Part shown: positions 29,840-42,283 of the stretch, piece after piece
Position numbering within the stretch: position 1 is the stretch's first letter
Layout of the letters: every line of letters begins with the position of its first letter
Assembly: GCF_038087665.1 (NCBI RefSeq)
Contig: NZ_CP149925.1
Location: 1,922,870-1,986,869 of the forward strand
Origin: Gallaecimonas sp. GXIMD4217
Lineage (GTDB): Bacteria; Pseudomonadota; Gammaproteobacteria; Enterobacterales; Gallaecimonadaceae
Direction: 5' to 3'
DNA: 64,000 bases
The notes under the pieces: generated by a model
The model's input: the letters and a program-made list of their open reading frames with translations, nothing else
The model's database searches: none
Told to the model about the DNA's origin: nothing
Program-made: the position numbers and the translations under genes

Positions 29840-30661
29840 CTATTCCCACACCGGCAGCGCACCTGCCGGCAAGTATAGGTTGCGCCCCAGCTCCGCAAAG
29901 GGGCTGGGAAAATGAAAGTCGGAGCCCTGGGAGGCCTTGAGATGGTGCTCGGCGGCCAAGTCGGCCAGGAAGCGGCGCTCGTTCTGGGGCTGCTGGCACT
30001 GGGCCACCTCCATGGCGTCGCCGCCGGCCTCGGCGAATTCGGCCACCAGCTTGCGCAGCCACTTGCCGCTGAGCTGGTAGCGGCCCGGATGGGCCAGCAC
30101 CGCCTTGCCGCCGGCCCGATGGATGACGGCAATGGCCTCGGCCAGTGGCACCCAGTTGGGGGGCACATAGCCGGTGTTGCCCCGGCTCAGGTATTTCTTG
30201 AACACGGCGCCCACGGTGCTGGCCTTGCCCAGCTCCACCAGGTACTGGGCGAAGTGGGCCCGGGTGATGGCGGCGGTGCCTGCGTGGCGGCGGGCCCCGG
30301 CCAGGGCGTCGGGTATTTTGGCTTTCTCCAGACGGCGGCCTATCTCCACCGCCCGCTCCTCGCGGCGCTGCTTCTGCTGCGCCAGCAGGGCCATCAGGGC
30401 CTGGCAGTCTTCGTCCACCCACAGGCCCACCACATGGACCTCCTTGGCGCCCCACTGGCAGGAGATCTCCACCCCGGGCACCAGCTCCAGGGGCAGCTCG
30501 TTGTCATGGATATGGGCACGGGCCACCGCCAGGGCGTCCGTGGTGTCGTGGTCGGTGATGGCCAGGCGGCTGACCCGCCGCTCGATGGCCCTGTCGATCA
30601 GGGCCTGGGGGGTCAATTTGCCGTCGGAAAAGACGGTATGGCTGTGTAAATCGGTGATCAT
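29840..30661 (-). CDS. rnm: PHP-domain 5'-3' exonuclease TrpH/RNase AM
   Basis: A 273-residue PHP phosphoesterase. Metal-binding motifs: DLHSHTVFSDG near the N-terminus, DHDTTDALA, GVEISCQW and the C-terminal SDFHFP. The E. coli homologue (YciV/TrpH/RNase AM) removes 5'-3' nucleotides and 3',5'-bisphosphate ends, including during maturation of rRNA 5' ends. The ATG at 30661 (MITDLHSH) is chosen; an upstream extension would run into the trp leader. It is divergent from the trp operon, as in E. coli. Confidence 0.93.
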   Translation of the reverse strand: MITDLHSHTVFSDGKLTPQALIDRAIERRVSRLAITDHDTTDALAVARAHIHDNELPLELVPGVEISCQWGAKEVHVVGLWVDEDCQALMALLAQQKQRREERAVEIGRRLEKAKIPDALAGARRHAGTAAITRAHFAQYLVELGKASTVGAVFKKYLSRGNTGYVPPNWVPLAEAIAVIHRAGGKAVLAHPGRYQLSGKWLRKLVAEFAEAGGDAMEVAQCQQPQNERRFLADLAAEHHLKASQGSDFHFPSPFAELGRNLYLPAGALPVWE

Positions 30662-30709
30662 GGGACGATTGTACCCCGACAAGGCAGGCACACAAGGTAA
30701 AAGAAGGCG

Positions 30710-30738
30710 TTGACAGGGCCCGGGCCGGCAGATAGGGT
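30710..30738 (+). promoter_or_regulatory. Predicted promoter of the trp operon
   Basis: TTGACA (30710-30715), a 17-base spacer and TAGGGT (30733-30738). The -35 box is a perfect consensus. The expected start, near 30745, coincides with the ATG of the first leader peptide, so either the first leader is translated with almost no 5' UTR or another promoter exists upstream. No TrpR-like CTAG palindrome is visible. Confidence 0.5.
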
Positions 30739-30745
30739 TTAGGGC

Positions 30746-30796
30746 ATGAAAGCGAATATCTTCACTCTGAACAACTGGTGGTGGCACAACCCATAA
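30746..30796 (+). CDS. trpL: trp operon leader peptide 1 (WWW)
   Basis: A 16-residue peptide, MKANIFTLNNWWWHNP, with three consecutive Trp codons near its end, followed by an attenuator hairpin. Ribosome stalling at these codons during tryptophan shortage would free downstream RNA to form an antiterminator. Its AGGG ribosome-binding site (30734-30737) requires transcription from upstream of the predicted start. It is the first of two leader peptides in series before the DAHP synthase gene. Confidence 0.85.
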   Translation: MKANIFTLNNWWWHNP

Positions 30797-30871
30797 CGGG
30801 CTGTGCATTTTGTCGTATTCGTATTTCGACCAAATTCCACAAGCCCGCTGCACGCGGGCTTGTTTCGTTTT
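30785..30871 (+). promoter_or_regulatory. trp attenuator 1
   Basis: Segment 1 GCACAACCC (30785-30793) can pair with segment 2 GGGCTGTGC (30799-30807 region, one mismatch). Segment 2 can instead pair with segment 3 CACAAGCCC (30838-30846, one bulge). Segments 3 and 4 form the terminator CAAGCCCGC / TGCAC / GCGGGCTTG (30840-30862), followed by TTTCGTTTT. This is the standard three-way choice of a transcription attenuator. Confidence 0.8.
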
Positions 30872-30885
30872 AGGGACCAAGAAAA

Positions 30886-30948
30886 ATGACCAACTTCAAG
30901 CAACTCAACATCTGGTGGTGGTGGCACTCCTGGCGTCAGGCGGGCTAG
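30886..30948 (+). CDS. trpL: trp operon leader peptide 2 (WWWW)
   Basis: A 20-residue peptide, MTNFKQLNIWWWWHSWRQAG, with four consecutive Trp codons plus a fifth three residues later. It is preceded by an AGGGACC-type ribosome-binding site and followed by a second intrinsic terminator. It starts only 15 bases after the T-run of the first attenuator, so it is translated only from transcripts that pass the first terminator (unless it has its own promoter, for which I see no evidence). Confidence 0.88.
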   Translation: MTNFKQLNIWWWWHSWRQAG

Positions 30949-31015
30949 TCGCACCTGTGTGTTCCCTAACGAACATCCCAAGGCCCGCCGACAAGGCGGG
31001 CCTTTTTTATTTTTA
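30939..31015 (+). promoter_or_regulatory. trp attenuator 2
   Basis: The terminator is GGCCCGCC / GACAA / GGCGGGCC (30982-31002), followed by T6ATTTTT. An alternative antiterminator pairs GGCGGGC at 30939-30945, which overlaps the 3' end of leader 2, with GCCCGCC at 30983-30989. Stalling on the Trp codons at 30913-30924 would leave the 30939 segment free to pair, so starvation favours read-through. Confidence 0.82.
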
Positions 31016-31032
31016 AATTCGAGGAATGAATC

Positions 31033-32046
31033 ATGATTGTCGTACTGAAACCTGCTGCCAGCGAACAAGACGCCAAGGCCATCCTGGCCCGTATCGAGAG
31101 CAAGGGCCTGCAGCCCTTGTACATGCCCGGCGTGGAGCGCATCGTGCTGGGCGCCATCGGCGACGAGCGAGTGCTGGCCCAGCTGAACCTGGAGGCCGAC
31201 CCCCTGGTGGAGGAGGTCAAGCCCATCCTGTCCAAGTACAAGCTGGTGTCCCGGGAGCTGCACCCCCACGACACCCGCGTCAAGCTGGGCGACAACCATG
31301 TCGGCGGCGAGTGCTTCGCGGTGATCGCCGGGCCTTGCGCCGTCGAATCCCGCGAGCAGCTGCTGGCGGTGGCCGAACTGGTCCAGAAGCACGGCGCCAT
31401 CGCCCTGCGCGGCGGCGCCTTCAAGCCCCGCACCAGCCCCTACGCCTTCCAGGGCCTGGGTGAGGAAGGTCTGAAGCTGCTTAAGGAAGCCAACCAGCTG
31501 CTGGGCCTGCCCACCGTCTCCGAGGTGGTCACCGCCGAGGAGGCCGAGCTGGTGGCCCAGTACGTGGACTGCCTGCAGATAGGCGCCCGCAACATGCAGA
31601 ACTACCGGCTGCTGGAGGCCGTGGGCAAGGCCGGCAAGCCGGTGATGCTGAAACGAGGCCTGAGCGCCACCATCGAAGAGTTCCTGCTGGCCGCCGAGTA
31701 CATCTTAAGCAACGGCAACCCCAATGTGATCCTCTGCGAGCGCGGCATCCGCACCTTCGAGACCGCCACCCGCAACACCCTGGATCTCAACGCCGTGGCA
31801 CTGCTGAAGCAGAAGACCCATCTGCCGGTGATGGTGGACCCCAGCCATGGCACCGGCGTACGCGAGCTGGTCATCCCCCTGTCCCGGGCCGCCGCCGCGG
31901 TGGGCGCCGACGGCATCATCGTCGAGAGCCACCTCAATCCCAAGGCCGCCCTGTCCGATGGCCACCAGGCCCTGACCGGCCCCATGTTCGCGCAGCTGAT
32001 GGCGGAGCTGAAGCCCTTCGTGGCCGCCGCCGGGAGGACACTGTGA
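31033..32046 (+). CDS. aroF: 3-deoxy-7-phosphoheptulonate (DAHP) synthase, type I-beta
   Basis: A 337-residue DAHP synthase, the first enzyme of the shikimate pathway (PEP plus erythrose-4-phosphate). Residues of about 1-75 form the ferredoxin-like regulatory domain seen in Thermotoga and other type I-beta enzymes. The TIM-barrel follows, with [34 protein letters not shown] and DPSHGTG metal/substrate motifs. It is the first gene of the trp operon, overlapping trpE by 4 bases. It is therefore under Trp attenuation and probably dedicated to tryptophan supply. The E. coli AroF/G/H enzymes are type I-alpha, a different subfamily, so the symbol is provisional. Confidence 0.92.
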
Positions 32047-33557
32047 GCCATCAGTTCCTGAGGCTGAAGAGCCACTACCAGGCCGATCCCCTGGCCTGCT
32101 ACCAGCACCTGAGCGGCGGCAAGCCCGGCAGCCTGCTGCTGGAGTCCGCCGAGCCCAGCGCCGGCAACGCCAAGCAGAGCCTGGCGGTGCTGGACGCGGC
32201 CCTGGAGATCCGCGCCCTGGGCCAGCAGATCAGGGTGACCAGCCTGAGCGCCAACGGCGCCGCCCTGCTGCCGGCGCTGGCCGGGGCCCTGGGCGCCGAG
32301 GTGAACGGTGATTCGTTCACGGTGACGGTGCCCAGGCCGGATCCGGAGCTGGACGAGGATCAGCGTCTCAAGGCCCCCTCGGTGCTGTCGGTGGTGCGCG
32401 AGCTGCTGGCGCTGCTGCCCCAGGATCCGGAGCTGCCCTTCGCCTCCCTGGTGGCGGGCCTGTTCGGCTTCGATCTCATCGCCTCCTTCGAGGCGCTGCC
32501 CGAGGTGGGCGGCAACGAGCAGGTGCCGGATCTCTGCCTGTACCTGGCCGAGACCCTGCTCCATGTCGACCATCAGCGCCAGAGCGCCAGCCTGCAGGCC
32601 CTGTGCCTGGACGGCGCCGACAGCGCCAGCTACTTCGAGCTGTCCCGGCGCCTGGCCCGTTACCACCGGCAGCTGGAGCAGGTGCCGGCGCTGGAGGCCA
32701 TCCCGGCCGCCGGTAAGCCCGAGGCCACAGAAGTGCTGCCCGGCGACGCCGACTTCGAAGCCCAGGTGGCCCGGCTCAAGGAGCACATCCTGGCCGGCGA
32801 CTGCTTCCAGGTGGTGCCGAGCCGCCGCTTCCTGGCGCCCTGCCCCGAGCCCCTCAAGGCCTACCGGGCGCTCAGGGCCCAGAACCCCAGCCCCTACATG
32901 TTCTACCTGGCCCATAAGGACTTCACCCTGTTCGGCGCCTCCCCGGAAAGCGCCCTGACCGTGGACAGCCAGAGCCGCCAGCTCAGCCTCTATCCCATCG
33001 CCGGCACCCGCCCCCGCGGCATGGATGCCGATGCCGACGCCCGCATCGAGCTGGAGCTGCGCCTGGACGAGAAGGAACAGGCCGAGCACCTGATGCTGGT
33101 GGACCTGGCCCGCAACGACGTGGCCCGGGTCGCCGAGCCCGGCAGCCGCGCCCTGGCCGAACTCTTGAAGGTGGACCGCTACGCCCGGGTCATGCACCTG
33201 GTGTCCAGGGTCACCGGCACCCTGCGCTCGGATCTGGACGCCCTGCACGCCTACCAGGCGGCCATGAACATGGGCACCCTCACCGGCGCCCCCAAGGTAC
33301 GCGCCAGCGAGCTGATCCGCCAGGTCGAGGGCCGCCGCCGCGGCGCCTACGGCGGCGCCATCGGCTACCTGACCGCCCGCGGCGACATGGACAGCGCCAT
33401 CGTCATCCGCTCCGCCCAGGTGGTGGACGGCACCGCCTGTGTCCAGGCCGGCGCCGGCGTGGTCTATGATTCGGTGCCGCGCCTGGAGGCCGAGGAAACC
33501 CGCCACAAGGCGTCCGCCGTGCTGGCCGCCATCGCCGCCACCCAGGAGGCCCGATGA
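32043..33557 (+). CDS. trpE: Anthranilate synthase component I
   Basis: A 504-residue chorismate-to-anthranilate synthase subunit. The tryptophan feedback site LLLES lies near residue 38. The chorismate domain has [21 protein letters not shown] (with the Ala-Gly-Thr that differs from the PabB Lys motif), [15 protein letters not shown], and [11 protein letters not shown]. It works with TrpG, encoded next. Its ATG lies within the aroF-like stop overlap and its stop overlaps trpG. Confidence 0.96.
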
Positions 33558-34135
33558 ACATCATCATGCTCGACAACCAGGACTCCTTTACCTACAACCT
33601 GGTCGACGACTGCCGCCAGCTCGGCGCCAGGGTGCGCACCTTCCGCAACACCGTGCCCGCCCGGGTGGTGCTGGACGCCCTGGCCCAGGCCGAGCGGCCG
33701 CTGCTGCTGCTGAGCCCGGGCCCCGGCGCCCCGGATCAGGCCGGCTGCCTGATGCAGGTGCTGGCCGAGAGCCTGGGCCGCTACCCCGTGCTTGGCGTCT
33801 GCCTGGGCCACCAGGCCCTGGTGCAGCACTGCGGCGGCAGCCTCAGGCGCTCGCCTGTGCCCCGCCACGGCAAGGCCTTCCGGCTGGACATCGCCGACCA
33901 TGCCCTGTTCACCGGCATGGAAAGCGCGCCCCTGGTGGGCCGCTACCACTCCCTGGTGGCGGACGTGGTGCCGGACCAGCTCGAGGTGCTGGCCCGTAGC
34001 GAGGAGCAGGTGATGGCGGTGAGCCACCGCCGGCACCCGGCCATCGGCCTGCAGTTCCACCCCGAATCCCTGCTGACCCGTGACGGCCGCCGCCTGCTGG
34101 CCAATGCCTTCGACCTGTTGGGAGCCCGACCATGA
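33554..34135 (+). CDS. trpG: Anthranilate synthase glutaminase component II
   Basis: A 193-residue class I glutamine amidotransferase that supplies ammonia to TrpE. The nucleophile Cys is in GVCLGHQAL, with His/Glu in GLQFHPES. The SPGPGAP oxyanion motif is present. It is a stand-alone gene here, not fused to trpD as in E. coli. It overlaps trpE and trpD by 4 bases each. It could also serve PabB, since no pabA is seen in the window. Confidence 0.94.
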   Translation: MNIIMLDNQDSFTYNLVDDCRQLGARVRTFRNTVPARVVLDALAQAERPLLLLSPGPGAPDQAGCLMQVLAESLGRYPVLGVCLGHQALVQHCGGSLRRSPVPRHGKAFRLDIADHALFTGMESAPLVGRYHSLVADVVPDQLEVLARSEEQVMAVSHRRHPAIGLQFHPESLLTRDGRRLLANAFDLLGARP

Positions 34136-35133
34136 ACCTCGATCATTTCCTCACCGCCGCCCCCCTCAGCCAGGATCAGGCCCGGGCCCTGTTCACCCAG
34201 GTGGTGCAGGGCGAGCTGGAGCCGGTGCAGCTGGCCGCCGTCCTCACCGCCATGAAGGTCCGCGGCGAAACCGCCGACGAAGTCAGCGGCGCCGCCCTGG
34301 CCCTCTTGGACGCCGCCCTGCCTTTCCCAACCCCGGACTACCGGGTGCTGGACTGCTGCGGCACCGGCGGCGACGGCGCCAACACCCTCAACATCTCCAC
34401 CAGCGCCGCCTTCGTGGCCGCCGCCGCCGGCGTCAAGGTGGTCAAGCACGGCAACCGCGCCGTCAGCAGCCAGAGCGGCTCCACCGACGTGCTCGGCGCC
34501 CTGGGGCTGCCGGTGGAAGTGGCCCCGGAACTGGCCCGCCGGGCCCTGGACGAGCTCAACCTGTGCTTCCTGGCCGCCCCCCAGTACCACCCCGGCATCC
34601 GCCACGCCATGGCGGTGCGCAAGAGTCTCAAGACCCGCACCCTGTTCAACCTGGTCGGTCCCCTGGTCAACCCGGCCCGGCCCGGCCGCCAGCTGATGGG
34701 CGTCTACCACGAGAGCCTGCTGCCGCTGGTGGCCGACACCCTGATGCAGCTCGGCCGCGACCGGGCCCTGGTGGTGCACGGCAGCGGCCTGGACGAACTG
34801 GCCCTGCACGGCCCCACCCGCATCATCGAGATCAAGGACGGCAAGCAGATCGAGCATGAGCTGACCCCGCAGCGCCTCGGCCTGGAGGAGCAGGCCTTGG
34901 CCGCCATCCGCGGCGGCGACGCCAACCACAACGCCTGCCGCCTGAAGAACCTGCTGGAAGGCCGCGAATACGGCGCCTATGTGGACGCCGTGGCCCTGAA
35001 CGCCGCCGCCCTCTTGTACCTGGACGAAAAGGCCGCCACCCTGGTCGAGGGCCTGGCCGCCGCCCGCGAGGTGATCGACAGCGGCAAGGCCGGCCAACTA
35101 CTCAAGGCACTCAAGGAGCTGCTCCATGGCTGA
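34132..35133 (+). CDS. trpD: Anthranilate phosphoribosyltransferase
   Basis: A 333-residue enzyme that joins anthranilate and PRPP to give phosphoribosylanthranilate. The PRPP/Mg motifs CCGTGGDGANTLNIST and KHGNRAVSSQSGSTDVLGALG (each well conserved) and the RTLFNLVGPLVNPA segment are visible. The length is that of stand-alone TrpD. It overlaps trpCF by 8 bases. Confidence 0.96.
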   Translation: MNLDHFLTAAPLSQDQARALFTQVVQGELEPVQLAAVLTAMKVRGETADEVSGAALALLDAALPFPTPDYRVLDCCGTGGDGANTLNISTSAAFVAAAAGVKVVKHGNRAVSSQSGSTDVLGALGLPVEVAPELARRALDELNLCFLAAPQYHPGIRHAMAVRKSLKTRTLFNLVGPLVNPARPGRQLMGVYHESLLPLVADTLMQLGRDRALVVHGSGLDELALHGPTRIIEIKDGKQIEHELTPQRLGLEEQALAAIRGGDANHNACRLKNLLEGREYGAYVDAVALNAAALLYLDEKAATLVEGLAAAREVIDSGKAGQLLKALKELLHG

Positions 35134-36475
35134 GACCATCCTCAACCGCATCGTCGCCCGAAAGCGCGCCGACCTGCCGGCCCTGAAAGCGCACTACCCC
35201 CGGGCCCTGGCCGGCACCGGCCTGGAAGCCTCCGGGCGCAGCCTGTATGACGCCATCAAGCAAGGCCCGGGCTTCATCCTGGAGTGCAAGAAGGCCAGCC
35301 CCTCCAAGGGCCTCATTCGCGACGACTTCGACCTGGACGCCATCGCCACCGTCTACGGCCGCCACGCCAGCGCCATCTCGGTGCTCACCGACCAGCCCTT
35401 CTTCCAGGGCAGGCCCGAGTACCTGGCCAAGGTGGCGTCCCGGGTCACACAGCCGGTGCTGATGAAGGACTTCGTCATCGACCCCTTCCAGGTGCGCCTG
35501 GGCCGATTCTTAGGCGCCGACGCCGTGCTGCTGATGCTGTCGGTGCTGGACGACGACCAGTACCTGCTACTGGCCGCCGAGGCCGCCAAGTACCAGATGG
35601 ACGTGCTCACCGAGGTGGCCAACGAAGCGGAGCTGGACCGGGCCCTGGCGCTCGGCGCCGCCATCATCGGCATCAACAACCGCAACCTGCACGACCTCAG
35701 CATCGACCTGGCCCGCACCGAGCAACTGGCGGCGCGGATCCCTGACGCCACCCTGGTGATCAGCGAGTCCGGCATCAAGAACCATGGCGACGTCAAGCGC
35801 CTGCGCCCCCATGCCGACGGCTTTTTGGTCGGCTCCGAGCTGATGAAGGACGACGATCTGGACGGCGCCTGCCGGGCGCTGATCCACGGCGAACACAAGG
35901 TCTGCGGCCTGACCCGTCCCCAGGACGCCCTGGCCGCCTACCGGGCCGGGGCCCTGTTCGGGGGCCTGATCTTCGCGCCCAGGAGCCCGCGCTGCCTGAG
36001 CGTCGACGAGGCCGAAGCGGTGATGGCGGCGGCGCCGCTGCGCTACGTGGGGGTGTTCGTCAACGAGGCCGTAGAGCAGGTGGCCGCCATCGCCAAGGAG
36101 CTGGACCTCTACGCCGTGCAGCTGCATGGCGACGAGGACGAGACCTATATCGCCCAGCTTCGCCAGTTGACCTGGGCACAGCTCTGGAGGGCCTGCACCG
36201 TCGATGCCATGCCAACGCTTGCCGTGGACCGGCTGGTGGTGGACTCCAAACATGACGGCCAGTTCGGCGGCACCGGCACCGCCTTCGACTGGTCCAAACT
36301 GGATGGCAGGGCGCAGCCAGTGCCGGTGATGCTGGCCGGCGGCATCGGCCCGGACAACTGCGAAAGCGCGCTGAAGGTACCGGGCATCACCGGCCTGGAC
36401 CTGAATTCAAAGCTGGAAAGCGCCCCTGGCCTGAAATGCCGGGACAAGATCAACGCCGTATTTGACAAGGTTTAA
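35126..36475 (+). CDS. trpC: Bifunctional indole-3-glycerol phosphate synthase / phosphoribosylanthranilate isomerase
   Basis: A 449-residue fusion, the same arrangement as E. coli TrpC(F). Residues of about 1-255 are the IGP synthase TIM barrel ([49 protein letters not shown]). Residues of about 256-449 are the PRA isomerase barrel ([33 protein letters not shown]). The two domains catalyse consecutive steps. The gene ends 4 bases before trpB. Confidence 0.96.
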
Positions 36476-36479
36476 CAAG

Positions 36480-37658
36480 ATGAGCCAGTTTTCCCCTTAT
36501 TTCGACGACTTCGGCGGCTGCTTCGTCCCGGAGATCCTGGTGCCGGCCCTGGAGCAGCTCACCGCGCATTTCGAGGCGGCGCTGGTTGACGACGGCTTCC
36601 AGCAGGAACTGTCCGGCCTGCTGCGCCACTACGCCGGCCGCCCCACGCCGCTGTTCGAGGCCGAGCGCTTTTCCCCCAACCCCAGGGTGCGGATCTTCTT
36701 AAAACGCGAGGATCTGCTCCACGGCGGGGCCCACAAGACCAACCAGGTGCTGGCCCAGGGCCTGCTCACCAAGCGCATGGGCAAGACCGAGATCATCGCC
36801 GAGACCGGTGCCGGCCAGCACGGCGTGGCCACCGCCATGGTGGCGGCCCTGCTGGGGCTCAAGGCCCGCATCTACATGGGCGCCAAGGACTGCGCCCGCC
36901 AGCAGCCCAACGTCTACCGCATGAAGCTGATGGGCGCCGAGGTGATCCCGGTAGAAAGCGGCTCCGGCACCCTCAAGGACGCCGTCAACGAGGCCCTGCG
37001 CGACTGGGCCGCCAACTACGACAGCGCCCACTACCTGCTGGGCACCGCCGCCGGCCCCCACCCCTTCCCGCACATGGTGCGCGAGTTCCAGCGCATCATA
37101 GGCCGGGAGGCCAAGGCGCAGATGCTGGAATTGGCCGGACGCCTGCCGGATCTGGCCATCGCCTGCGTCGGCGGCGGCTCCAACGCCATCGGCCTGTTCG
37201 CCGACTTCATCGACGAACCGAGCGTGGCCCTGATGGGCGTGGAGCCGGCCGGCCGCGGCCTGGACACAGGCGAACACGGTGCCCCCATCCACCTGGCCCG
37301 CACCGGCATACTGCACGGCATGAAGAGCTACCTGATGCAGGACGAGGTGGGCCAGATCCTGGAAAGCCACTCCATTTCCGCCGGCCTGGACTACCCGGCC
37401 GTGGGCCCCCAGCATGCCCAGCTGGCCGCCAGCGGCCGCGCCCAATACGTGGCCGTGACCGACGACGAGGCGGTGGCCGCCTTTGGCCGCCTGGCCCGCA
37501 CCGAAGGGATCATCCCGGCCCTGGAGTCCAGCCACGCCCTGGCCCAGGCCCTGAAGGTGGCCGAAGCCGCCACCGACGACATGCTGCTGCTGGTCAACCT
37601 GTCCGGCCGCGGCGACAAGGATCTCAACACCATGATGGCCCTGGAGGATGCCCAATGA
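36480..37658 (+). CDS. trpB: Tryptophan synthase beta chain
   Basis: A 392-residue PLP enzyme condensing indole and serine to tryptophan. The Schiff-base Lys lies in [11 protein letters not shown], the catalytic Glu in [12 protein letters not shown] and the phosphate-binding loop in GGGSNAIG. The ATG at 36480 is used because the N-terminus [18 protein letters not shown] matches the family; an in-frame ATG at 36462 lies in the trpC tail. It overlaps trpA by 4 bases. Confidence 0.97.
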
Positions 37659-38467
37659 GCCGTTACAGCCCCCTGTTCGACCGCCTGGCCGCCGACAAGC
37701 ACGGCGCCTTCGTGCCCTTCTTGATGCTGGGCGATCCGGACCTGGCGTCCTCCTTCGAGCTTATCTGCGAGATGGTGGAAGCCGGCGCCGATGCCCTGGA
37801 GCTGGGGATCCCCTTCTCGGATCCGGTGGCCGACGGCCCCACCATACAGGAGGCCGCCATCCGCGCCCTGGCCGCCGGCACCACCCCGGCCAAGGCCTTG
37901 GGACTGGTCGCCCGGGTGCGCGAACGTTACCCCGAGCTGCCCATGGGCCTGCTGGTGTACGCCAACCTGGTCCACGCCGCCGGCCTGGACGCCTTCTACG
38001 GCCGCTGCGCCGAGGCCGGGGTGGATTCTGTGCTGGTGGCGGATGTGCCGCTCCGGGAGGCGGCACCCTTTATCGAAGCCGCCAGGGCCAACGCCGTGGC
38101 ACCGGTGCTGATCGCCCCGCCCAATGCCTCGGACGATACCCTCAGGCAGGTGGCAAAGCAGAGCCAGGGCTATGTCTACCTGGTATCCCGGGCCGGAGTC
38201 ACCGGCACCGAATCCAGGGCCGGCAGCAGCCTCTCGCCCCTGGTGCAGAAGCTCAAGGATTACGGCGCCCCGCCGGTGCTGCTGGGCTTTGGCATCGCCA
38301 GCCCCGCCGACGTGCAGGCGGCCCTGGCCCAGGGCGTGGACGGCGCCATATCCGGCTCCGCCGCCGTCAAGGCCTCGACCCGCGGCCCCAAGGCCCTCGG
38401 CCGCTTCGTGGCCGGCATGAAGGCCGCCAGCCGCGGCGAATTCGTGGACAGCTTCCCGGGGCAATAA
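37655..38467 (+). CDS. trpA: Tryptophan synthase alpha chain
   Basis: A 270-residue TIM-barrel subunit that splits indole-3-glycerol phosphate and channels indole to TrpB. Catalytic Glu in [16 protein letters not shown] and Asp in VLVADVP are conserved, as are [12 protein letters not shown] and LLGFGIASP. It is the last gene of the seven-gene trp operon and is followed by a strong terminator. Confidence 0.97.
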
Positions 38468-41078: not shown

Positions 41079-42283
41079 ACTTTGTTAACGGCAGGGAACT
41101 ATCTCGCTTGGGCGTGATCCGATCCGCCATGTTACTCTGCCGGCTCCACTCCCATGTCCCTGTTTGACCACTTGACCCTCATCGAAGATACCCGCTCCCC
41201 CATCAACCGCCAACACAACCTCGTCGATGTCATCTTCTTGGTGATGTCTGCCATGGCCTCTGGCTGTGAAGGCTGGCTTGATATCGAAGAGTTCGGCCAT
41301 GAGCACCTGGATTGGCTCCGCCAACACCGGCCATTTGAAGCGGGGATCCCCACCCGCCATTCCATCGCCCGCATCATCAAGGCCGTGGATGCACAATGCC
41401 TCGTACTGGCCCTGTTTAGCTGGGTCAATCACTTGCGCCAAGCCAATGGCCGCCAGCTCATCGCCATTGATGGCAAGACCCTGCGCGGGGCGGTCAATCA
41501 ACAAGGTAAAGAGCAAGCGCTGCACCTGATCTCGGCCTTCGATACCGAGCAGGGTGTCACCCTGTTCCAGCAAGCCACGGCAACCAAAGGAGGAGAGTTG
41601 GTTGCGGTGCGAGAGCTGCTGACCATGCTGGATATCCGCGACGCCGTGCTGACCTTTGACGCCTTGCATTGCAACAAGGAAACACTGCACCAGATCAGCA
41701 AGCGTAAGGGCGACTACATCGTCCAGGTCAAAGGCAACCAGCCGAGCTTGCGTGAGGCCATAGAAGAGATCTTCCAGCCCTATTGGGATAGCGGTGCAGC
41801 GGGACTCCCCCAGCATGAGCAAACGGAACAAGGCCATGGCCGGCAGGAGCGGCGGACGGTGTTCCAGTTGCCGGCCACACTGTCCAAAGAGCTGGCGAAG
41901 AAGTGGCCGTCGGCGAAGTCCGTTATCGCGGTAGAGCGGGAGCGCCGCCACCGGGGGCGGACGAGCATCGACACCCATTACTACCTGAGTTCATTGGATA
42001 TCGACCCAGCGTTTGTGTCAGACGGGATCCGCCAGCACTGGCATATCGAGAACCAGCAGCATTGGGTGCTGGATGTGACCTTCAGGGAAGACTGCAGCCG
42101 GATAGGCGACCGGGAGAATGCCAAGAAGATGGCGTTGCTACGACGGATCGTGCTGAACCTGCTCCAGCAGCACCCACTGCAGGTCAGCAAGCCGAGCAAG
42201 CGGCGGAAGGCGGCCTGGAACGGGAAGTTCAGGTCAGAACTGTTCTTTGGTTAATGGATTTAACAAAGCATAATCCGGCCCTG
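41065..42283 (+). mobile_element. ISAs1-family insertion sequence
   Basis: A 1219-bp element bounded by imperfect terminal inverted repeats that both begin CAGGGCC and share CTTTGTTAA (left 41065-41089, right 42259-42283, about 21 of 25 matching). It contains one full transposase gene. The 10 bases flanking each end do not match (GATAGCCTCC against GGCCCTGAGG), so no target-site duplication is visible. The exact outer base is inferred from TIR symmetry. The left junction truncates an NTF2-like gene and the right junction truncates an integron-cassette gene. Confidence 0.85.
41154..42254 (+). CDS. ISAs1-family DDE transposase
   Basis: A 366-residue transposase, full length for the family. The N-terminal DUF4372-like helical start (LIEDTRSPINRQHNLVDV) and the DDE segments are recognisable: AIDGKTLRGA for the first Asp, LTFDALHCNK for the second, and WHIENQQHWVLDVTFREDCSR for the Glu region. 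No frameshift or internal stop is seen, so the element may still be active. Confidence 0.93.
   Translation: MSLFDHLTLIEDTRSPINRQHNLVDVIFLVMSAMASGCEGWLDIEEFGHEHLDWLRQHRPFEAGIPTRHSIARIIKAVDAQCLVLALFSWVNHLRQANGRQLIAIDGKTLRGAVNQQGKEQALHLISAFDTEQGVTLFQQATATKGGELVAVRELLTMLDIRDAVLTFDALHCNKETLHQISKRKGDYIVQVKGNQPSLREAIEEIFQPYWDSGAAGLPQHEQTEQGHGRQERRTVFQLPATLSKELAKKWPSAKSVIAVERERRHRGRTSIDTHYYLSSLDIDPAFVSDGIRQHWHIENQQHWVLDVTFREDCSRIGDRENAKKMALLRRIVLNLLQQHPLQVSKPSKRRKAAWNGKFRSELFFG

Follow-up and report, generated by a model that had tools for sequence, protein, structure and literature searches.

Two predicted trp attenuators in series ahead of a Gallaecimonas tryptophan operon

Introduction

The trp leader is the textbook attenuator, and most depictions show a single unit accompanied by a repressor. 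In Gallaecimonas sp. GXIMD4217, two Trp-rich leader ORFs (WWW in the first, WWWW plus a further W in the second) lie within positions 30746 to 31015 of the plus strand, ahead of a DAHP synthase gene and trpEGD(CF)BA. An earlier note on this DNA, made from the sequence alone, had proposed that they belong to two complete trp attenuators placed in series ahead of one trp operon. Are both units real, could both respond to tryptophan supply, and what might a second attenuator in series be for? All positions refer to the window, i.e. the whole 64 kb stretch of DNA analysed, which is part of the single contig of a 3.35 Mb genome. We conclude that two transcription attenuators, both ribosome-mediated, both of the E. 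coli trpL type and both responsive to charged tRNA-Trp, probably follow one another in this leader RNA.

Results

Two complete leader units precede the trp operon

Both leader ORFs and both terminators could be read directly (Table 1), which bears out the proposal of two attenuators in series; the coordinates first given for them were right to within a few bases. In agreement, the peptides have 16 residues with WWW and 20 residues with WWWW and a fifth W, i.e. three Trp codons in leader 1 and four plus one in leader 2, or eight in total. A terminator scan of positions 30550-31060 returned exactly two stems (shuffle mean 0.3), one at 30839-30863 with 10 bp, 7 of them GC, and one at 30980-31004 with 10 bp, 8 of them GC. 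The leader-1 stop codon lies just ahead of unit 1 segment 2. That of leader 2 lies within unit 2 segment 2, so this segment would be covered by a terminating ribosome. Downstream, neighbouring trp frames overlap at their ends in the window ORFs.

Table 1. Features of the tandem trp leader and the operon behind it (window coordinates).
Feature	Position	Strand	Details	Basis
Probable promoter	30710..30738	+	TTGACA-N17-TAGGGT; -35 at 30710-30715, -10 at 30733-30738	Read directly; relaxed scan
Leader peptide ORF 1	30746..30796	+	MKANIFTLNNWWWHNP*; 16 aa; Trp codons 30776-30784	Read directly
Unit 1 segment 2	30797..30805	+	CGGGCUGUG; predicted antiterminator arm	Fold
Unit 1 terminator	30839..30871	+	Segment 3 at 30839-30848, segment 4 at 30854-30863, T-rich tail	
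Leader peptide ORF 2	30886..30948	+	MTNFKQLNIWWWWHSWRQAG*; 20 aa; Trp codons 30913-30924 and 30931-30933	
Unit 2 segment 2	30939..30948	+	GGCGGGCUAG; predicted antiterminator arm	Read directly; fold
Unit 2 terminator	30980..31015	+	Segment 3 at 30980-30989, segment 4 at 30995-31004, T-rich tail	
DAHP synthase gene	31033..32046	+	First structural gene	Pfam PF00793 (2.8e-80), PF18152 (1.8e-19)
trpE, trpG, trpD, trpC-trpF fusion, trpB, trpA	32043..38467	+		Pfam families of all six enzymes

A chance origin of the tandem was rejected, because two units (a WW-containing ORF followed by a terminator) appeared in 0 of 20,000 dinucleotide shuffles of positions 30662-31032; at least one unit appeared in 9 of 20,000. 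No other WWW unit exists on either strand of the window, and a looser WW rule added one match on the plus strand and one on the minus strand, neither of them near the operon.

Other features were noted by eye around the locus. An ORF on the opposite strand upstream, starting near 30661, has a PHP-like N-terminus and gave no Pfam match at E 1e-10, and an ORF at 41154-42254, about 2.7 kb behind trpA, resembles an insertion-sequence transposase. Weak Rfam matches also occur at other places in the genus genomes.

Both units are predicted to switch with ribosome position

Nascent RNA was folded from the assumed ribosome edge (15 nt) to the end of segment 3, with the ribosome either stalled at the first Trp codon or standing at the stop codon. 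For the window, the predicted pairing of segment 3 was 0.79 in the stalled state and 0.03 at the stop codon in unit 1, and 0.79 and 0.08 in unit 2. The genus, here coextensive with family f1, was represented by five genomes (G000-G004, with G000 the window genome); over both of their units, the predicted values were 0.70-0.88 stalled and 0.01-0.37 at the stop codon, and the stalled-state pairing was reached by 0 to 9 of 60 mononucleotide shuffles. As folded here, the antiterminator is predicted to be exclusive with the terminator and dependent on ribosome position in both units of all five genomes. Together with the terminator scan, these folds agree with the earlier reading that each unit has its own terminator and a competing antiterminator.

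A wider fold set comprised 52 units from 27 of the 29 tandem loci described below, with 16 single attenuators as yardsticks. Five second units were weak (L195, L239, L241, L243 and L248), their stalled pairing being reached by 31 to 60 of 60 shuffles, and 3 of the 16 yardsticks were also weak (L136, L173 and L221; 17 to 28 of 60). Judging from these predictions, some of the second units may have degenerated or adopt another fold.

Predicted pairing energies bear on whether the units act independently. They could instead be coupled, such that the free segment 4 of an antiterminated unit 1 pairs with segment 3 of unit 2 and helps polymerase past terminator 2. In the window, the only locus for which this was calculated, the predicted duplex between these segments has -15.8 kcal/mol, compared with -17.6 kcal/mol for the cognate 2:3 pairing of unit 2. 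However, both terminators use a common GCCCGC/GCGGGC word, so such complementarity is to be expected even in the absence of selection. The local 2:3 partners also lie nearer to each other, and terminator 2 is itself stronger (-20.8 kcal/mol). On this balance, coupling is unlikely and the two steps may be independent.

Unit 1 is kept in all five genus genomes

Unit 2 matches the Rfam Trp_leader family (RF00513) at 30910-31009 with 48.6 bits, above the gathering score of 41, whereas unit 1 (30773-30867) scores 26.5 bits (E 0.023), below gathering. This difference could indicate that unit 2 alone works and that unit 1 is a copy in decay, retained by chance or as 5′ untranslated sequence. However, the four congeners show the same split, with unit 2 above gathering and unit 1 below (27.1-30.9 bits), and such low unit 1 scores across congeners point to a bias of the Rfam model, not to decay in the window species. 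The earlier note had named close relatives as a check, and both units were indeed present in all five genus genomes. Leader 1 ends in WWWHNP* in every one of them; leader 2 ends in WWWWHSWRQAG* in four and in RWWWRSWLQAG* in G001. Terminator 1 also covaries: over the five genomes, 9 pairs include no broken pair and 3 that changed on both sides, in hairpins that were hand-trimmed and from which the structure was drawn, so that the slid controls lean towards structure. Since unit 1 is also predicted to switch with ribosome position as unit 2 does, we give a decaying unit 1 little credence and retain the reading in which both units work.

The first leader ORF may be leaderless

Promoter calls here are consensus matches and thus predicted starts only. 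The candidate ahead of leader 1 was the best of a relaxed scan and was missed by a strict scan, its -10 being weak; TTGACA-N17 is kept in the four congeners, where the -10 reads TAGTTT or TAGCTT. From the presumed -10 box to the leader-1 ATG, the gap is 7 nt in the window and 34-37 nt in the four congeners. A short gap between -10 and ATG at leader 1 was seen in the window (30733-30746) and at unit 1 of loci in families f4, f8, f14 and f15. Over all loci, the distance from the best -10 match to the ATG was 6-8 nt in 14 of the 29 tandem loci, window included, compared with 1 of 41 single loci, which were hand-picked for the comparison and six of which had no promoter call. In four further tandem loci (L201, L239, L247 and L249), the second-best match alone has a 6-8 nt gap. 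The position of the ATG in the 14 loci suggests a leaderless ORF 1, and leader 1 may be leaderless or nearly so in the window species.

This excess of short gaps would fit leaders that sense different things, with a leaderless unit 1 reporting the state of translation initiation and unit 2 reporting Trp. However, leader 1 has at least two adjacent Trp codons in all 29 tandem loci, as the calling rule demands, and the gap is long in four of the five genus genomes. We regard different signals as improbable and the reading of Trp by both leaders as the better account.

A promoter between the leaders had been named beforehand as something that would make them independent of one another. A relaxed scan of the five genus genomes, by the same rules that find the promoter ahead of leader 1, gave no conserved candidate there. 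A strict scan also gave none, which says little, because it misses the presumed leader-1 promoter as well. These predictions disfavour a separate promoter between the leaders.

The two units appear to have split before the genus arose

With gaps treated leniently, like units were 0.74-0.93 identical across species, units 1 and 2 of one genome 0.68-0.73 identical, and units 1 and 2 from different genomes 0.66-0.73 identical (10 of 20 pairs). A unit thus resembles its counterpart in other species more than its neighbour in the same genome, which suggests that the split between units 1 and 2 predates the genus. Recent neutral duplication of a single attenuator would explain why both units have the same plan and a Trp-rich leader, but we rejected it as highly improbable: units 1 and 2 show no greater likeness within a genome than between genomes, and all five genomes keep both.

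Tandem units occur in six families of the order

Loci were gathered by several routes. A pattern search (TGGTGGTGG-N(110-140)-TGGTGGTGG) of 394 order genomes matched 82, mostly in what looked by eye like coding sequence; those read as leaders came from the genus (five), f7 g87 (two) and f14 (one). A trpE search matched 149 of 168 order genomes, and upstream DNA was taken from 100 of the 149. A second trpE search of 34 chosen genomes, mainly from f7 and f8, where tandem units had already been seen, matched 31 and added 30. The resulting table of 140 loci consists of the 100 and 30 trpE loci, two extra f3 loci, three loci from the pattern search and the five genus loci (L250, a repeat, was unused).

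Tandem units were found at 29 of the 140 trp loci, in six families, and the arrangement is thus not unique to this genome. By family, the counts were f1 5/5, f4 1/1, f7 3/26 (three g87 genomes), f8 16/20, f14 1/2 and f15 3/3, where the f7 and f8 fractions are not a fair sample of the order, because part of the table was chosen after tandem matches had been seen. We suspect that family f8 is Kangiella-like. Calls by script numbered 27, of which two in f20 were removed, and four loci were added by eye: L062 (f7 g87), L202 (f4, with a mismatch in the second terminator), L235 (f8) and L064 (f14). In the removed calls (L147 and L149), the first 'unit' appears to be the Trp-rich terminal part of a protein encoded upstream, followed by a terminator belonging to that protein's gene. 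For L233 and L242 no call was possible, as their sequences start within the first gene or just ahead of it. At class level, 185 genomes were searched with a pattern, and inspection by eye showed a tandem leader in none but G000; this is a weak negative, since a pattern of that kind caught only 8 of the 29 tandem loci within the order.

Several loci showed departures from either plan. In L064 (G041, f14 g31; about 992-1123), the second Trp-rich ORF reads through the terminator without a stop, which could reflect either a variant unit or faulty sequence in a fragmented assembly. Eight loci have an extra short W-x-W ORF behind a single unit (L137, L138, L139, L142 and L143 of f25 g35, L157 and L159 of f13, and L122 of f7; e.g. 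MKPRIQTSIPTWRWRP and MRIQVRKHNWRWRVSNRT). No second terminator was seen by eye behind it in the six of these eight that were read (L122, L137, L139, L143, L157 and L159), and the ORF is possibly a remnant or precursor of a second unit. In two loci of f8, terminator-like hairpins stand where a second or first unit would be, with a short ORF holding one Trp in L240 (G330, g107) and no recognised Trp-rich ORF in L231 (G254, g89), as if one unit were decaying. In L136 and L144 (f25 g25), an ORF of ~45 codons between the trp terminator and trpE (MKPT...FWRWQ...DIASQVIRQ(I/V)PDD) is alike in both by eye and possibly encodes a small protein.

Tandem genomes give no match to the TrpR family

The TrpR family (PF01371) matched 188 of the 394 order genomes at E 0.001, 178 of them over the curated cut-off. 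Among 14 controls, E. coli and B. subtilis matched, so the family may be wider than TrpR itself. A genome was scored as lacking TrpR when it was not in the list of PF01371 matches. By this measure, neither G000 nor G001-G004 had a match at E <= 0.001, and none of the 29 tandem genomes was among the matching genomes, whereas the other 111, as read from that list, included 37 with strong matches (E below 1e-15) and three with weak ones (G023, G103 and G105).

The association of tandem units with missing TrpR gave p 4e-5 at the level of genomes, which are related to one another. At family level, a strong match was missing from 15 of 25 families, and these included all six tandem families (one-sided p 0.028), which we take as a weak association. 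Single attenuators also occur in families without a strong match (f3, f10, f13, f16, f20, f25 and most of f7), so lack of TrpR alone does not require two units and the relation is one-way at most. The lack of a detected TrpR in all 29 tandem genomes suggests that the tandem arrangement has a purpose beyond fine tuning.

Discussion

We propose that both leaders are translated and that each unit works in the manner of the E. coli trp leader. A ribosome stalled at the Trp codons would leave segment 2 free to pair with segment 3 as the antiterminator, and a ribosome at the stop codon would block this 2:3 pairing, so that the 3:4 terminator forms. With termination at both sites and independent steps, polymerase would have to pass two checkpoints, and therefore read-through probabilities would multiply and log-sensitivities add, giving a steeper response. 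By simple arithmetic, a leak of ~10% per unit would give a basal level of about 1% and a range of about 100-fold; with 12% read-through per unit and a maximum of 80%, the basal level would be 1.4% and the range 44-fold. Expression would thus be low at the base and wide in range without TrpR, and the series pair may cover part of the work that TrpR does elsewhere.

In PMC1183508, repression of E. coli trp is put at about 70-fold and attenuation at a further 10-fold, and basal read-through is linked, in the model of Elf and Ehrenberg, to the presence or absence of repressor action alongside attenuation. Basal expression could, we suggest, also be kept low by placing a second attenuator in series. 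A series pair without detectable TrpR offers a natural test of series attenuation, in its basal level, range and sensitivity, and its units could be compared with that model (PMC1183508). If the proposal is true, it would show how a repeated RNA element may take over the job of a regulatory protein. The probable leaderless first unit in about half of the tandem loci also raises the question of how a leaderless ORF 1 keeps pace with polymerase.

A much broader version can be stated, in which serial attenuation is ancient and recurrent across the order, a leaderless first unit is coupled to the second through segment 4 of unit 1 and segment 3 of unit 2, the pair replaces TrpR as the main control of the pathway, and the Trp-rich ORF that stands behind the lone terminator in f25, in f13 and in one genome of f7 is the remnant of a second unit. 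As a whole, we think this doubtful, and the comparisons below refer to the narrower proposal of two attenuators in series.

With the E. coli trp leader (RF00513), the present units share a Trp-rich leader ORF, alternative pairings and an intrinsic terminator ahead of trp genes. Unlike E. coli, which according to PMC1183508 has one unit and TrpR, this locus has two units and no detectable TrpR. The trpL-trpE(G) leader of Sinorhizobium meliloti is alike in pairing attenuation with no repression and in its leaderless transcript, as unit 1 may be and as the first units of the other short-gap loci recall: the trpL transcript starts right at its ATG, and no repression acts on the operon (PMC7298713). 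It differs in having, as described in the same paper, a single attenuator.

In the mgtCBR leader of Salmonella, a single leader RNA likewise has two leader ORFs and their attenuators one behind the other; these act independently and answer to different signals, ATP and proline (PMC3641672), whereas here Trp codons stand in both leaders. That paper contrasts mgtCBR with a leader whose two sites are expected to be intrinsic terminators. On the contrast drawn there (PMC3641672), our locus differs from mgtCBR, having hairpins like intrinsic terminators in both units. Two different signals, as in mgtCBR, are not what the sequence of our locus holds, a Trp cluster being present in each leader.

Closest by DAHP synthase, at 73-77% identity, were ten Ferrimonas-like loci (L066-L074 and L105; nine titled Ferrimonas, and L068 titled Marinobacter nauticus), the best matches among named records, in a search with upstream DNA read for 13 of its 54 loci. 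They have a WWW leader ahead of DAHP synthase, as here, but one leader and terminator in 10 of 10 over the 500 nt upstream that were read, compared with two in our locus. Tandem T-box leaders of Gram-positive trp operons place two like sensors of uncharged tRNA in series. T-boxes bind the tRNA directly, whereas a ribosome-mediated attenuator senses through the translating ribosome. The two arrangements are alike in having two like sensors in series ahead of trp genes, and the sensor here would be the translating ribosome.

The earlier note knew of no described example of this arrangement, and our search likewise found no report of tandem ribosome-mediated trp attenuators in open PMC full text, subscription journals being outside its scope. 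To our knowledge, comparative surveys of proteobacterial attenuation exist in such journals and could hold a tandem trp case. By anatomy, each unit appears to belong with the known trp leader attenuators, and it is their pairing in tandem that seems to be new.
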